From assembly GCA_035703895.1 (NCBI GenBank), contig DASSXJ010000274.1, positions 1-41,538 of the forward strand: DNA of 41,538 bases, given 5' to 3'. The stretch is from a bacterium (GTDB lineage: Bacteria; Sysuimicrobiota; Sysuimicrobiia; Sysuimicrobiales; Segetimicrobiaceae). Below the pieces are notes generated by a model. That model made no database searches. It worked only from the letters and a program-made list of their open reading frames with translations, and was not told the DNA's origin. This document shows positions 12,018 to 41,538 of this stretch, piece by piece. The position numbers and the translations under genes were made by a program. Position 1 is the stretch's first letter, and each line of letters begins with the position of its first letter.

Positions 12018-12749
12018 CTATCCCGGGCGCAGCCCAACGAGGCGCCGCATGGCGCGCGAGGCGAGGATCCGCTTCACCTGCTCGATCGCCTGGGTGGGAT
12101 CGAGCCCCTTGGGGCACAGGTCCGCGCACGTCCCATGTGTGTGGCACCGCCAGCACCCACGCGCGCTGTCGAGCGCCGCGAGGCGCTCCTCGTTCCCAGC
12201 TCCGCGCGAATCGGCGAGGAGGCAGAGGGCCCGCGTCATCGCCGCGGGACCCAGAAACCCCGGGTGCATACCAACGACATCGCACGCGGCGTAACAGATG
12301 CCGCACGAGATGCATTCGCGGTGCCGGTCGATCACCCGGCGCTCGCGGCTCTCCGGTTGGACCCCGGCCTCGTCTGAAGGGTTAGGCCCCGGAATGAACT
12401 CGGGATGGACCGCGCGCCAGGCGTCGAAGAACGGCGCGAAATCGACCACCAGATCTCGGATCACGGGGAAATGCCGGAGCGGCTCGACGACCACGACCTC
12501 TTCCGGAATCGCCGACAGCCGGGTGCTGCACGCCAGCCGCCCCACCCGGTTCACGGTCACGCTGCAGGTCCCGCACATGCCCGCCCGACAGGCGTAGCGG
12601 AAGGCGAGGCCGCGGTCAGAGTAGCGGTGGATGTGCAGGAGGCCATCGAGCACGGTCATGCGGGCACTCTCGGGCACCTCGTAGCTCTGGAACGCGCGGC
12701 CGCCGGTGCCGTCCGACCGGGCCACGCGGACGCGCCTGACTTTCGTCAT
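12018..12749 (-). CDS. sdhB: Succinate dehydrogenase iron-sulfur subunit
   Basis: This 243-residue electron-transfer subunit links the flavoprotein to the membrane anchors. The [2Fe-2S] site reads C-x4-C-x2-C-x11-C (CRAGMCGTC followed by VGRLAC). The second half has the usual ferredoxin pattern for the [4Fe-4S] and [3Fe-4S] clusters: CISCGICYAAC and then CHTHGTCADLCPKGLDP. The linker between these two blocks is long, and an extra Cys (GCWRC) stands three residues before the second block. The ATG at 12749 forms an ATGA overlap with the sdhA stop and has GGAGG upstream, which decides against in-frame starts further up. Confidence 0.95.
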   Translation of the reverse strand: MTKVRRVRVARSDGTGGRAFQSYEVPESARMTVLDGLLHIHRYSDRGLAFRYACRAGMCGTCSVTVNRVGRLACSTRLSAIPEEVVVVEPLRHFPVIRDLVVDFAPFFDAWRAVHPEFIPGPNPSDEAGVQPESRERRVIDRHRECISCGICYAACDVVGMHPGFLGPAAMTRALCLLADSRGAGNEERLAALDSARGCWRCHTHGTCADLCPKGLDPTQAIEQVKRILASRAMRRLVGLRPG

Positions 12750-14467
12750 CGGTCGGCCTCCGCGAGCGCATCGGCCGGATTCATGCGGGTGAGGCAGACG
12801 GGGCGGACGGCGAGGCGGGGGCCGTCGCCCCCAGACCGCATCACGACGTGCGCGAGCCACTCCCGGTCATCCTGGGCGGGAAAGTCTGCGCGGTAGTGCG
12901 CGCCTCGGCTCTCCGTGCGGGAGGCGGCCGCCCGCGCGATCAATGTGGACGCGACGAGCAGGCTGTGAAGGTTGAGCGCCGCGGCCCACTCGACGTTGGC
13001 TTCGCGGGAACCGTGGACCCCGATCGTCCCGGCGCGGGTGGTGAGCTCGGCCAGTTCCGCGATCGCCTCATCCAGGAGGCGCCCGTCACGCACGACCCCG
13101 ACCTTGTCCCACATCAGCCGGCGCAGCCGGTCGAGCAGGTCATAGGCGTCGGCGCCGCGTTCGCGGCGGAGCGGCGCGGATGCCTGCGCGATGTGCCGCT
13201 CAGCCTCCCGCTCGTCCCGCGGGATGCGCGGCCGCGCTCCGACCTCCTCGGCGATCACGTCGCCGGCCAGCGCGCCAAAGACGAGGGACTCGGCCACCCC
13301 GTTTCCCCCCAACCGGTTCGCGCCTTGAACCCCCGAAGCGTCTTCTCCCGCGGCGTACAAACCGTCGAGCGTCGTCCGGCACCGCGCGTCGATCCGCACG
13401 CCGCCCATGAGATAATGGGCGGTCGGTGAAATCTCCACGCGGCCGCGCGCGAGATCGTATCCGGCGGCGCGCGTCCGCTCCACCATCCCCGGGAAGGCCT
13501 GCGCGATCTCGTCCTGATCGAGGTGGCTCAGGTCCAACCACACCCCACCCAACGGCGACCCGCGCCCCTCCCGGGCCTCCAGGTAGCAGGCGCGCGAGAC
13601 CACATCTCGCGTGGCCCGCTCCATCCGCGCGGGATCGTAGCGCTCCATGAAGCGCTCGCCGAGAGCATTGTAGAGCCGGCCCCCGACGCCGCGCAGCCCC
13701 TCCTCGAGCACCATGCCGTGGAGCTCGGAGCCCTCGACGACCAGCCCGGTCGGGTGGAACTGCACCATCTCCATGTCCATCACTTCTGCGCCCGCGGCGT
13801 ACGCCATGGCGATCCCGTCCGTGCTCTTCTCGCGCGACGGGGACGAGACCGCATACATCGTCGGCCCCCCTCCGGTCGCGAGCAGCGTCGCGCGCGCTTC
13901 GGCCACGAGAAATCGTCCGCGGCGCATGTCGAGCAGGACGCTGCCGCAGACCCGCGCTTCGCCGTGGTCACGGAGCAGGCCGACGGCGCGGTGGTCTTCC
14001 AGCACGCGGACCCGGCGGCCGAGGACCGCGTCGCGAAGCCGCTCCATGATCTCGATCCCGGTCAGGTCACCGCGGTGCACGGTCCGATCGAACGACTGTC
14101 CCCCGAAAGGCTTCTGGTGGATCGAGCCGTCGGGAGCGCGGTCGAAGAAGCACCCGTACCGGCTCTCGAGCTCGCGGATCATCGCAGGGGCCCGCGTGAC
14201 GAGGATCCAGGCCAAGTCCTGCTCGTTCAGGAACGCGCCCCCGGCGATGGTATCTGCGAAATGCCGTTCAAAGGAGTCGGCCGGGTTGAGGACGGCGTTG
14301 TACCCACCCTGCACCATCCGCGTGCAGCCGCTCTTCGCGAGCAGGCCTTTGACGGCGATCGTCACGTCGAGCGCCGGCGCGCGTTCCGTCAGGTGCAGGG
14401 CCGCACAGAGGGCCGCCCCGCCGCCGCCCACGATGAGCACGTCGGTGGCGAGCACGTCACCGGCCAC
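12746..14467 (-). CDS. sdhA: Succinate dehydrogenase/fumarate reductase flavoprotein subunit
   Basis: This 573-residue FAD subunit interconverts succinate and fumarate on the cytoplasmic face. It has the dinucleotide motif LIVGGGGAALCAAL at residues 11-24, the substrate-region motif MVQFHPTGL, the active-site HYLMGGVRID, and the late FAD pattern GANRLGGNGVAES. The stretch that normally holds the FAD-linking histidine (S-H-T/S followed by AQGG) reads SGCTRMVQGG here, with Cys48 at the histidine's place, so the flavin may not be covalently bound in the usual way. The ATG overlaps the fumarase beta gene by 11 nt. Direction (succinate oxidation or fumarate reduction) cannot be read from sequence; the b-type anchors and the fumarase next door suit either. 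Confidence 0.93.
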   Translation of the reverse strand: MAGDVLATDVLIVGGGGAALCAALHLTERAPALDVTIAVKGLLAKSGCTRMVQGGYNAVLNPADSFERHFADTIAGGAFLNEQDLAWILVTRAPAMIRELESRYGCFFDRAPDGSIHQKPFGGQSFDRTVHRGDLTGIEIMERLRDAVLGRRVRVLEDHRAVGLLRDHGEARVCGSVLLDMRRGRFLVAEARATLLATGGGPTMYAVSSPSREKSTDGIAMAYAAGAEVMDMEMVQFHPTGLVVEGSELHGMVLEEGLRGVGGRLYNALGERFMERYDPARMERATRDVVSRACYLEAREGRGSPLGGVWLDLSHLDQDEIAQAFPGMVERTRAAGYDLARGRVEISPTAHYLMGGVRIDARCRTTLDGLYAAGEDASGVQGANRLGGNGVAESLVFGALAGDVIAEEVGARPRIPRDEREAERHIAQASAPLRRERGADAYDLLDRLRRLMWDKVGVVRDGRLLDEAIAELAELTTRAGTIGVHGSREANVEWAAALNLHSLLVASTLIARAAASRTESRGAHYRADFPAQDDREWLAHVVMRSGGDGPRLAVRPVCLTRMNPADALAEADR

Positions 14468-15068
14468 CGGATGGGGCTCCTCCGCCGGCGCCCTTGTCGA
14501 TCAACCCGGACAACCGTTCCCGCGCCGTCTCCGCGATGCGCGCGTAGGCGCTCTCGCCGTGACTGTCGATCGAGACGAGCAGGGGCCCGAGGTCGCGGAA
14601 GCGGAACTGCCAGAGGCACTCGGGCATCAGGTCTTCCCAGTAAACCGCCTCGATCTCCTCGAGGTGCGTCGTCTCCCACGCGGCGGCCCCCCCGACGATG
14701 CTCAGATACACGCCGCCGTATTCCCGCATCGCGCGGACGCTCCCCGCCGGCAGGCCGCCCTTGCCGATGATCGCCCGTACGCCGTACTCGTGCAGCAGGC
14801 CGGCCGTGAACCTGTCCATGCGCGCGCTCGTCGTTGTGCCGACCGAGACCGCCTCGTAGCGTTCGCCGACCCTGCGGACGTTGGGAGCGGTGTGCAGGAG
14901 CACGCCGCCGCGGAGGTCCACCGGGGGCCGCTCGCCTTTGTCGAAGATCCGGATCAAGGTCGCATCGCGCAGACCGAAGACGGTCCCGGTGAGGAATACC
15001 CAATCCCCGACCCGAAGGCGCCGGACCCCCGCTTCGTCGAGCGGCGGGGTCATCTGGATCTCAGCCAT
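14457..15068 (-). CDS. Class I (Fe-S) fumarate hydratase or L(+)-tartrate dehydratase, beta subunit
   Basis: This 203-residue protein matches the C-terminal (beta) domain of class I fumarases. It starts with LRVGDWVFLTGTVFGLRDAT and has VDLRGGVLLHTAPNV, the catalytic-region TTTSARMDRF, IIGKGGLPAG, and the GGAAAWETTHLEEIEAVYWEDLMPE block. The enzyme adds water to fumarate to give malate; close relatives dehydrate tartrate instead, and the split alpha/beta form occurs in both. It overlaps the alpha gene by 8 nt and sdhA by 11 nt. Being next to succinate dehydrogenase makes fumarase the better call. Confidence 0.9.
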   Translation of the reverse strand: MAEIQMTPPLDEAGVRRLRVGDWVFLTGTVFGLRDATLIRIFDKGERPPVDLRGGVLLHTAPNVRRVGERYEAVSVGTTTSARMDRFTAGLLHEYGVRAIIGKGGLPAGSVRAMREYGGVYLSIVGGAAAWETTHLEEIEAVYWEDLMPECLWQFRFRDLGPLLVSIDSHGESAYARIAETARERLSGLIDKGAGGGAPSGGR

Positions 15069-16005
15069 GATGCCGGCTGCCGGCGGGGCCGAACTCTGCC
15101 CGGCCGTCCGCGTGAATCCGCGCCGTGGCCCGCAGGCCGCGCCAGCACTGCATGTTTACGGCCACGGGGTTGTGCGTGATGTGCGTGTACGCGTGCTCGA
15201 TGTGCACGGCGAGCGCGGTGGTGTCGCCGCCGAGCCCCTGGGGGCCGATCCCGAGCGTGTTGATGCCGGCGAGCAGATCGTCCTCGAGCGCGCCCAGGTG
15301 AGGGTCCGGGTTCCGGGTGCCGATCGGCCGGATCGACGCGCGCTTCGCCAGCGCCACGCAGAGGTCCGCGGATCCGCCCACCCCGACGCCGACGATGCAC
15401 GGCGGGCAGGGATTGGCGCCGGCCTCGACCACGCTCTCCAATACGAACCGCCGGACTCCCGCCACGCCGTCCGCGGGGGGGAGCATCTTTAGGAAGCTCA
15501 TGCTCTCCGATCCCGATCCCTTGGGGATGCAGAGGATGTCCACCCAGTCCACGTTCGGCACGAACTCCCAGTGGATCGCCGGAATCCGGTAGCCGGTGTT
15601 GGTCTGCGGGTTTTCGCGCGTGACCGGGTGGCACACGCTGGACCTGAGCGGGTACTCGCGCGTGGCCCTCTCGGTGCCCCGCCGGATCGCGTCCCCCACC
15701 CTGGCCCCGTCGACGCGAAGGCCCGTGCCCACGCCGATGTAGTAGATCGGGGTCCCCGTGTCCTGGCAGACGAGCGTGTCCCGCTCGTCGGCGAGCTCGA
15801 CGTTCCGGAGGATGATGCCGAGGAGCTGGCGGGCTACGGTCGACCGTTCCCGCTCGTAGGCGCGCGCGAGCGCCGCGCGGATATCGGCCGGGACATCCTT
15901 CAGGGCGCCGATGTACAGCGCCTTCGTCGTTTCCTCGACCGCGCCGTAGAACCCGGTCGCCACGGACACGCCGGCGTCCCCCGGCGTCACGCGCTCATGC
16001 CCCAT
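15061..16005 (-). CDS. Class I (Fe-S) fumarate hydratase or L(+)-tartrate dehydratase, alpha subunit
   Basis: This 314-residue protein is the N-terminal, cluster-binding part of a class I fumarase. The three cysteines expected to hold the [4Fe-4S] cluster are visible in VCQDTGTP, ANPCPPCIVGVG and VNMQCWRG. Other family blocks are RSSVCHPVTRENPQTNTG, KGSGSESMSFLKML and NTLGIGPQGLGGDTTALAVHIE, with the THITHNPVAVNMQCW stretch near the end. It starts at ATG 16005, overlapping the ABC permease gene by 19 nt, and overlaps the beta gene by 8 nt. With sdhABCD next, it would convert the product of succinate oxidation to malate. Confidence 0.92.
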   Translation of the reverse strand: MGHERVTPGDAGVSVATGFYGAVEETTKALYIGALKDVPADIRAALARAYERERSTVARQLLGIILRNVELADERDTLVCQDTGTPIYYIGVGTGLRVDGARVGDAIRRGTERATREYPLRSSVCHPVTRENPQTNTGYRIPAIHWEFVPNVDWVDILCIPKGSGSESMSFLKMLPPADGVAGVRRFVLESVVEAGANPCPPCIVGVGVGGSADLCVALAKRASIRPIGTRNPDPHLGALEDDLLAGINTLGIGPQGLGGDTTALAVHIEHAYTHITHNPVAVNMQCWRGLRATARIHADGRAEFGPAGSRHHG

Positions 16006-36956: not shown

Positions 36957-38090
36957 CTACCCGCGGAAGAAGGCCTCGACGGCTGCGACAACCACGTCTG
37001 CGTCGCCGTCCGAAAGCGGGCGGGCATCGAACGCCAGGATCCCCTCGCCTATCCGATGGTCGCGCGTGAAGACGGGCGGGGTCCACCCACGCAGGTGCGT
37101 GACGAGCCGTCTCGCCTGGGCCCGTTCGTCCTCTCCGGAAAACTGGATCTCCGCCCGTTCGATGTCGGGGCGCACGTCGTCCCGCACGGCCCGAACTGCC
37201 ACGCCCGGCAGCCGCCCGAAGGCCGCGACGAACCGCGCGACCACCGCGCCCTCCCGAGCCCGCACGGCCTGGCGGTCGGCGGCCGAATACTCGTCGAGGG
37301 CCTGCACGAGTCCGGTGATGGCTTCCTTCCCGATCTTCATGGCCCGCCCGATCCCGCGGTGCTGGGCCCGGACGCCGTCGACGAGGTCCCGTCGCCCGCA
37401 CACGAGACCGCTCGTGGGGCCGGCAAACGCCTTCGACCCGCTGTAGATCACGAGATCGGCCCCCCGCGCGACGTACCGCCGGAGATCCTCCTCGGCGGCG
37501 GCGTCGACGAGCACGGGGACGCCGGACGCGCGCGCGACATCGACGCAGTCCCCGAGCGAGAGCATCCCTCTCTGCACCGCGTGATGCGACTGCACAAACA
37601 CGAACCCGGCGGGCCGCGTCCGCATGACGGCCTCGAGCTCCAGCCGGTCCACCCGGTTCGCAGAGCCCACCGCCAGCACGGATCCGCCGCCCAGGCGGAT
37701 CATCTGCGCGACCTCCGCGCCGAAGTCAATGAGGTGCCCGGCCTGGATCGCGATCCGCCGCTCGCCCTCCGGGACGTCCGGGAGCCGGCGCACCCGGCGG
37801 GGGTCGTTCCCGACGATCACGGCCGCAACCGAGAGCGCGATCCCCGCGGCGGCGCTCGCGACGACGCACGCGGCGTCCGCCCCGGTGGCGCGCACGATCG
37901 TCTCGGCGGCCCACTCGTGCAGCCGGTCCATGTCGCAGTAGGCCCCCGCGGCGCGACGCATCGCCTCCACCACGCCCGCGGACAGCGTGGCCCCGCCGAG
38001 CGACGTCATGTGGCCGCTGGCGTTGATCACCCGCAGCGCGTGGGGATCCGCCGCATCGCGATCCTGCGTTCGCTTCCCCGCCCCGGTCAT
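36957..38090 (-). CDS. SelA-like PLP-dependent enzyme (DgaE/selenocysteine-synthase-like fold), probably an amino-acid or amino-sugar lyase
   Basis: This 377-residue fold-type-I PLP enzyme resembles proteins often annotated as L-seryl-tRNA(Sec) selenium transferase-like. It has INASGHMTSLGGATLSAGVV near the N-terminus, AACVVASAAAGIALSVAAVI in the cofactor domain, VPVLVDAAAEEDLRRYVARG with the Asp that binds the pyridine ring, and DLVIYSGSKAFAGPTSGLV with the Schiff-base lysine. True SelA is usually longer, near 450 residues, and has a tRNA-binding N-terminal part absent here. Related enzymes such as D-glucosaminate-6-phosphate ammonia lyase remove ammonia from amino sugar acids. The ATG at 38090 follows AAAGGGATG. 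Its place after an amino-acid importer fits amino-acid or amino-sugar breakdown better than Sec synthesis. Confidence 0.85.
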   Translation of the reverse strand: MTGAGKRTQDRDAADPHALRVINASGHMTSLGGATLSAGVVEAMRRAAGAYCDMDRLHEWAAETIVRATGADAACVVASAAAGIALSVAAVIVGNDPRRVRRLPDVPEGERRIAIQAGHLIDFGAEVAQMIRLGGGSVLAVGSANRVDRLELEAVMRTRPAGFVFVQSHHAVQRGMLSLGDCVDVARASGVPVLVDAAAEEDLRRYVARGADLVIYSGSKAFAGPTSGLVCGRRDLVDGVRAQHRGIGRAMKIGKEAITGLVQALDEYSAADRQAVRAREGAVVARFVAAFGRLPGVAVRAVRDDVRPDIERAEIQFSGEDERAQARRLVTHLRGWTPPVFTRDHRIGEGILAFDARPLSDGDADVVVAAVEAFFRG

Positions 38091-38121
38091 CCGCGCATCC
38101 CCTTTCGTCTCCCCACACACC

Positions 38122-38901
38122 TCAGACCGATCCGAAGACGCCGCGGAAGCGGCTGAGAAACGCCCGCAGACGCTCGGTGCGGGGATGGACCAGGACCTCG
38201 GAGGGAACGCCGTCCTCAACGATCACCCCGCCGTCCATGAAGACGACCCGGTGAGCGACCTCGCGCACGAAGATCATCTCATGGGAGACGACGAGCATGG
38301 TCTGCCCGCTCCGGGCGAGGTCCTGCATCACGGTGAGCACTTCCCCGATGAGCTCGGGATCGAGAGCCGAGGTGACCTCATCGAACAGCATCACTTTGGG
38401 CTGCATCGCCACCGCCCGGGCGATTGCCACCCGCTGCTGCTGCCCGCCCGAAAGCTGAAATGGATACGCCCGGACCTTCTCCGCCAGCCCCACGCGCTCG
38501 AGCCAGGTGAGCGCGATGCGTTCTGCGTCGACCCGCGCCTTTCTCTGAACGTGCACCAGCCCCAGGGTGACGTTGTCGAGCACCGTCATATGGGGGAAGA
38601 GGTTGTAGCTTTGAAAGACCATTCCCACTTCCGCCCGCTGGCGCGACACCCGTGACTCGGGGAGCCGAACCCGCTGGCCGTCGACCTCCCGGTATCCCAC
38701 CAGCTCCTCTCCAATGTGGATCCGCCCCTGCTGGTAGTCCTCAAGCGCGTTCACGCACCGGAGCAAGGTGGTCTTGCCGGATCCGCTGGCGCCGATCAAC
38801 GCCACCACCTGCCCAGGATCCACCTCCAGCGTGATCCCGCGGAGCACGTGGAGCGTCCCGAACCGTTTGTGTAGATCGGCAATCCTCAGGACGGGCGGCA
38901 T
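38122..38901 (-). CDS. Polar amino acid ABC transporter ATPase, GlnQ/HisP family
   Basis: This 259-residue ATPase has Walker A in [14 protein letters not shown], the Q-loop in [19 protein letters not shown], the signature [17 protein letters not shown], Walker [15 protein letters not shown] and the switch histidine in [10 protein letters not shown]. Between Walker A and the Q-loop there is a modest insert ([20 protein letters not shown]), as in several GlnQ proteins. The ATG at 38901 lies 7 nt after the HisM-like gene, and the GlnQ N-terminal pattern [19 protein letters not shown] starts there; the frame is open further upstream without homology. Confidence 0.95.
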
Positions 38902-41358: not shown

Positions 41359-41538
41359 TCACACCCCCTCACGCGTGGGGTAGCCGTGCGCCTCCCAATC
41401 GGCGAGACCACCCTTCAATGCGAACACCCGCGTGTACCCCTTGCCCCACAGCGCAGCCGCCGCCCGGGCGGCTGATCCTTCCTCGGGTCAGGTTCAGTAA
41501 AACACGAGATCGGTATCACGTGGAAGCTCGGACGCTCG
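41359..41538 (-). CDS. Rhodanese-like sulfurtransferase C-terminus, probable selenoprotein with U-x-U motif; 5' part outside window
   Basis: The last 59 residues of a rhodanese-domain protein are present; the gene begins beyond the right edge. The frame reads RASELPRDTDLVFY, then TGA, Thr, TGA, then PEEGSAARAAAALWGKGYTR and VFALKGGLADWEAHGYP. This matches rhodaneses that have D-x-x-I/V-V-x-Y-C-x-C-P-x-E-A-x-S-A at the active-site loop and the late GG-L-x-x-W-x-x-x-G-Y-P motif. Both cysteines of the C-x-C are TGA here. Everything before and after is in one frame. A strong SECIS-like hairpin follows 21 nt after the second TGA. The final stop is TGA at 41359-41361. A pseudogene with two nonsense codons exactly at the two catalytic-loop cysteines is much less likely. 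Confidence 0.8.
41454..41474 (-). promoter_or_regulatory. SECIS-like hairpin in the rhodanese-like gene
   Basis: CAGCCGCC (41474-41467) and GGCGGCTG (41461-41454) form a perfect 8-bp stem with loop CGGGC. It lies 21 nt after the second TGA and 27 nt after the first, within the range for bacterial SECIS elements, with G at the second loop position. The inner stem and loop nearly match the hairpin in the OsmC-like gene. Confidence 0.55.
41488..41496 (-). other. Two in-frame TGA codons (U-x-U), probable selenocysteines in the rhodanese-like protein
   Basis: TGA at 41494-41496, ACC (Thr) at 41491-41493 and TGA at 41488-41490 stand where the family has Cys-x-Cys after the strand DLVFY. Confidence 0.78.

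Follow-up and report, generated by a model that had tools for sequence, protein, structure and literature searches.

Most bacterial selenoproteins contain one selenocysteine (Sec, U). Reviews from 2022 and 2026 catalogued CxU rhodaneses plus several UxxU, CU and UxxxxU proteins; a UxU rhodanese is absent from both, including the table of the 2026 review, and a literature search for UxU or two-Sec rhodaneses, which covered open-licence papers only, found nothing relevant. Individual UxU records may already be in RefSeq, and the seed of NF041203 was not visible. Since the catalogued proteins of this subfamily already include rhodaneses with a single Sec (CxU), we regard the UxU protein described here as a variant and not as a new family.

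The closest described system is NF041203, rhodanese_LYCAU (rhodanese-like selenoprotein form 3), a CxU protein with one Sec. The protein encoded at the right end of the window (the whole stretch of DNA that was analysed, 41,538 nt) shares with it the fold, the loop, the Sec at the second loop position and the SECIS hairpin, but its first loop position, that of the catalytic Cys, is also predicted to be Sec, giving two Sec per protein and a UTU loop instead of the one-Sec CxU. NF041203 ("rhodanese-related (seleno)protein" LYCAU) was the best NCBIfam match of the window protein, which at 81 bits lies below the curated cut-off of 115; all 11 members tested match this model. TsoB (the rhodanese/DsbD fusion-like selenoprotein NF045694, UxxxxU) also has a rhodanese-like part and two Sec, but the spacing of its Sec pair differs, it is a 572-residue fusion, and the window protein scores only 24 bits against it (cut-off 805). 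Double-Sec redox proteins of the UxxU type (Prx-like, FmdB-like and metal-binding NF041115) likewise have two nearby Sec, a presumed redox or metal pair, but these are in other domains and with UxxU instead of UxU spacing. Finally, the classical single-domain rhodaneses GlpE, PspE and YgaP have the same fold, with their catalytic Cys at the position of the first Sec (Sec1) of the window protein, but they have a single catalytic Cys in a CxxGxR-type loop and no Sec.

A rhodanese gene with two in-frame UGA codons

A preliminary description of this DNA had reported one rhodanese-like frame broken only by TGA-ACC-TGA. The frame was confirmed and its coordinates were right; the strand, which had not been stated, is minus (Table 1). 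This frame reads RASELPRDTDLVFY-TGA-T-TGA-PEEGSAARAAAALWGKGYTRVFALKGGLADWEAHGYPTREGV-TGA, with the loop codons in the context DLVFY-TGA-ACC-TGA-PEEGSAARAAAALWGKGYTRVFALKGGLADWEAHGYPTREGV-TGA, and continues in frame after the loop as PEEGSAAR; the predicted active-site loop is Tyr-Sec-Thr-Sec (UTU). The window is an entire contig (C274), and the 5' part of the gene lies off its right end. The last 141 nt of contig C247, from the same genome (97% complete, 4.38 Mb), are identical to the reverse complement of the last 141 nt of the window. Joining the two completed the gene, which has its ATG start codon at C247:10482, comprises 107 codons and has an intact 5' part with no further stops. The full frame is on no single contig, and the overlap lies wholly inside the gene and holds both UGAs; we accepted the join on the grounds that full-length homologues align collinearly through the junction. 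The joined protein (107 aa) is MAGSSPEVPRLDAAEVKRRVDAGGAIIVDVRSPEAFAKRHIDGARLLDRASELPRDTDLVFYUTUPEEGSAARAAAALWGKGYTRVFALKGGLADWEAHGYPTREGV. About six residues after IDGAR, present in nearly all homologues, are missing from it as an in-frame gap (L012:10600-10640 with window 41538). Upstream lies an ORF for an EamA-type transporter (named by eye), whose stop overlaps the rhodanese start.

Table 1. Positions of the features of the UxU rhodanese gene (window coordinates unless a contig is named).
Feature	Position	Strand	Remarks
3' part of gene, codons 49-107 + stop	41359..41538	-	
5' 48 codons of gene	contig C247, from L012:10482		
UGA1	41494..41496	-	predicted Sec at catalytic rhodanese Cys position
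UGA2	41488..41490	-	two residues after UGA1; every CxU or UxU relative also has predicted Sec here
bSECIS hairpin CAGCCGCC-CGGGC-GGCGGCUG	41454..41474	-	8 bp stem, 5-nt loop at 41462-41466
True stop TGA	41359..41361	-	equivalent stop position in standalone homologues, several of which use TAA or TAG

The window protein matched the Pfam profile Rhodanese (PF00581) with an E value of 6.8e-16 (59 bits, cut-off 22.2). An AlphaFold2 model of the relative in genome G017 (pLDDT 92.4) has the rhodanese fold, with a TM of about 0.8 to solved rhodaneses, and places Sec1 as the first residue after a strand and before a helix. Alignment with classical rhodaneses of the same order places their invariant catalytic Cys at Sec1. 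No signal peptide is recognisable by eye in the standalone window protein, which is probably a single-domain cytosolic rhodanese.

Conservation of both UGAs in relatives

Among 60 relatives, the same TGA-x-TGA was found in G017 and G033, genomes from the same order but from two other families. A DNA pattern that included TGA, scanned genome-wide, matched 26 loci; rhodaneses with YUxU accounted for 16, and the other 10 were non-rhodanese frames, set aside and used as background. A protein scan with the Cys version of the sequence, where the patterns spell Cys as TGY, found nothing. Many more rhodanese loci came from profile searches in Methylomirabilota (95 genomes), a Desulfobacterota sample (395) and Synergistota (188), with phyla named according to the record titles of those loci on which the searches were centred. 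We examined 59 CxU loci, 21 UxU loci and one CxC locus in detail, and further matches, picked for that purpose, comprised 10 more UxU and three more CxC; no UxC was seen among the rhodanese loci examined. In all, some 30 UxU rhodaneses were found in Methylomirabilota, Desulfobacterota, Synergistota, a planctomycete and the window's own phylum, i.e., at least five bacterial phyla. One locus listed with two TGAs (L135) was left out since the pattern scans showed no UxU loop, and a USU sequence from G058 is less certain, having a long branch and a weaker fixed-geometry hairpin (5/8 pairs).

Sec- and Cys-containing homologues, which the preliminary description had proposed as a check, do exist (CxU, UxU and CxC forms and classical Cys homologues). 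Chance is excluded as the cause of the paired TGAs, since unrelated genomes carry TGA-x-TGA at these very codons. The rarity expected in the preliminary description was not borne out: with about 30 UxU loci, predicted double-Sec rhodaneses are less rare than had been supposed. An assembly error was also considered and rejected.

A single hairpin spaced to suit both UGAs

The published bacterial SECIS (bSECIS) model specifies a stem of 4-16 bp, a loop of 3-9 nt and a spacing of 16-37 nt, with G in the first two loop positions, often followed by G or U (PMC13188914); the bSECIS criterion also includes an MFE <= -7.5. The hairpin in the window, whose loop lies 21 nt after UGA2 and 27 nt after UGA1, meets these criteria in stem length, loop length and sequence and both spacings, so a predicted bSECIS that suits the published model is present; a SECIS prediction was among the checks proposed in the preliminary description. 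The MFE of segments of 54-60 nt was -22.7 and -26.9 kcal/mol. However, single-sequence folding was not exceptional (z -0.9 and 0), and the SECIS case was therefore moved to comparative tests.

In the 21 UxU loci, 7.19 of the 8 stem positions were paired on average, versus 5.65 +/- 0.20 in synonymous-codon shuffles (maximum of 1000 shuffles, 6.33), and in the 59 CxU loci the corresponding values were 6.29 and 4.76 +/- 0.14. Three of the hairpin pairs have changed on both sides, and sliding the partner strand by 1-3 columns weakened or destroyed the signal. The apical codon (codon +10) is NG[G/U] in 80/80 Sec loci, though it encodes Arg, Ser or Gly; where it encodes Arg, it is CGG, CGT or AGG in 63/63 cases, versus 51% in the remainder of these frames (P 2e-18). 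Four Cys-x-Cys homologues have no apical NG[G/U], with CGCGC, CATGT, CACGT or CAGGC there instead, and two of them pair at only 2/8 positions. The codons used in the shuffles were pooled from these very loci, and the sequences are related to one another, so the precise values call for caution; the direction of the signal in these alignments is nonetheless not in doubt.

Selenium machinery and the genetic code

The preliminary description had proposed checking the genome for selA, selB, selC and selD, and all four are present in the source genome: a tRNA-Sec (selC) with anticodon UCA, selA (555.7 bits) directly adjoining selB (358.7 bits, over the cut-off) on contig C81, and selD (392.9 bits). 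The selD gene (L107, G000:C205:6700-7620) is itself a selenoprotein gene, with an in-frame TGA in its N-terminal part at VACAG-U-ASKLGP. SelB scored over the cut-off in 14 of the 17 other UxU genomes. Of the three without it, G063 and G073 have tRNA-Sec; selA is complete in G063 and, in G073, present as a piece at a contig end. No selB, selA or tRNA-Sec was found in G017, the nearest UxU relative, which is 72% complete. TGA is the commonest stop among the larger ORFs of the window (13 of the 20 counted) and also ends the rhodanese gene; UGA is therefore not a reassigned codon here.

Evolution of the first loop position

A tree of 81 domains (110 columns, with the two motif positions masked) required eight changes of the CxU/UxU label (7-9 in bootstraps), versus about 19 for shuffled labels, and strongly supported (starred) branches alone force two to three. 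The tree is short, with many open forks, and cannot tell gain from loss. UxU and CxU sequences are intermixed in it and the SECIS position is identical, which supports common ancestry with the CxU (NF041203) members. The window sequence groups with those of G017 and G033, near the UxU sequences of Methylomirabilota. Entire clades retain UGA1, among them a fully supported group of six Syntrophales-type sequences. CxU relatives share the hairpin, and its distance from UGA2 is unchanged in them. At the first site, a Cys codon (TGC or TGT) would need only a single base change to TGA to gain the second Sec, and because the SECIS already in place for UGA2 could serve such a change, this would explain the repeated Cys/Sec switches on the tree.

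Fusions and gene context

Seven UAU rhodaneses (L081, L082, L085, L088, L090, L091 and L093) have an N-terminal signal-like sequence and a multiheme cytochrome c joined to the rhodanese domain. L166 combines rhodanese and multiheme cytochrome in the same architecture, but with a CAU loop. Many of the loci from the Methylomirabilota search (L116-L139) are CTU rhodaneses preceded in frame by a long N-terminal stretch, which in L118 is a VTT (DedA-like, PF09335) membrane domain, a fusion seen in CxU forms. In G033 (L099:4402-5217) the UTU rhodanese frame continues into a GAF domain, and an internal ATG permits either a fusion or two genes. In G058 (L080, G058:C60:78198-78917) two rhodanese genes stand side by side in tandem, one USU and one CDC. 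The neighbouring genes of six relatives revealed no shared partner and no functional clue.

Discussion

At the level of sequence comparison, our results establish that both UGAs are conserved sense codons in a genome that has the Sec machinery, with one predicted bSECIS spaced to suit both. UxU is, on the same grounds, a real and recurrent variant of a predicted selenoprotein and not a broken gene. The double-selenocysteine rhodanese put forward in the preliminary description is supported by the intact frame, the sel genes, the homologues and the bSECIS, and we consider it highly probable that the gene encodes such a protein, although Sec at either site is inferred and not observed at the protein level. 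SelB with Sec-tRNA, acting on a single hairpin, would decode both UGAs, which are 6 nt apart.

In the chemistry that we infer, the loop is a selenolate/diselenide sulfur-redox centre: Sec1, at the catalytic rhodanese position, would attack a sulfane-sulfur donor (polysulfide, persulfide or thiosulfate) to form an Se-S bond. The second Sec (Sec2) would then resolve this bond through a Sec-Sec (diselenide) link with release of sulfide, and an external reductant would reset the Sec pair. The net role would be sulfur reduction or a redox relay and not plain sulfur transfer, and in the fused relatives the multiheme cytochrome c would either feed electrons to the loop or take them from it. The cytochrome fusions favour a redox role; the sulfur-redox role is held only tentatively, a little short of an even chance, and the substrate, catalysis and cell-level function are all inferred. 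We regard as evenly balanced the broader proposal that one bSECIS directs two Sec insertions 6 nt apart to give a conserved Sec-x-Sec pair (a diselenide rhodanese), which would have been gained or lost several times by a one-base change under an existing SECIS and would, in Syntrophales-type genomes, be coupled to a multiheme cytochrome to work as a sulfur-redox enzyme.

Alternatively, a double-Sec protein might serve in selenium delivery, e.g. to SelD, or in metal or metalloid binding instead of sulfur reduction. In vitro, rhodaneses are able to carry Se; vicinal selenols would be tight ligands for Hg, As or Cu; and the protein is present in genomes that use Sec. However, the gene neighbourhoods examined showed nothing that would tie it to selD, selA or metal resistance genes, and the cytochrome fusions point to electron transfer; this reading remains a serious possibility against which we lean. 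A different objection concerns decoding: only UGA2 might be read as Sec via the SECIS, with UGA1 read as Cys or another residue by a near-cognate tRNA or serving as a selenium-dependent attenuation point, so that the protein would be mostly CxU. The hairpin stands at the same distance from UGA2 in CxU proteins, which are the majority form, and UGA1 is 6 nt further from it. Nevertheless, the spacing to UGA1 is within the published range (PMC13188914), and UGA1 has been retained in whole clades, such as the six Syntrophales-type sequences, though one base change restores Cys. We therefore judge decoding of UGA2 alone to be improbable.

A pseudogene or sequencing error with two nonsense changes at Cys codons might be suspected from the position of the gene at a contig break and the six or so residues missing from the window copy, but the recurrence of the same two TGAs in some 30 loci of several phyla, the conservation of the frame past them and the SECIS codon signature leave this with almost no support, and for the family we count it as already refuted. 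Reassignment of UGA to an ordinary amino acid, for which nothing speaks beyond the open frame, is likewise counted as already refuted by the use of TGA as the most common terminator and by the dedicated Sec machinery.

The double-Sec reading places two Sec two residues apart in a catalytic loop, the first on the catalytic residue of a very common sulfur-handling fold, and raises the question of whether one SECIS can serve two UGAs at different distances. CxC, CxU and UxU form a natural series in one fold, sometimes in the same fusion architecture, in which the contribution of each Sec might be gauged. In automated genome annotation, UxU genes are likely to be overlooked or cut short.

Other features of the window

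A SelA-like PLP enzyme is encoded at 36957-38219 (minus strand). Its best match was the DgaE-type ammonia lyase TIGR01437 (373.9 bits, just under the cut-off of 385.3), and it was rejected as the true SelA, which lies beside selB on contig C81. At 12746-16005 (minus strand), inspection by eye revealed a fumarate reductase/succinate dehydrogenase-like flavoprotein together with two adjacent ORFs resembling fumarate hydratase subunits.
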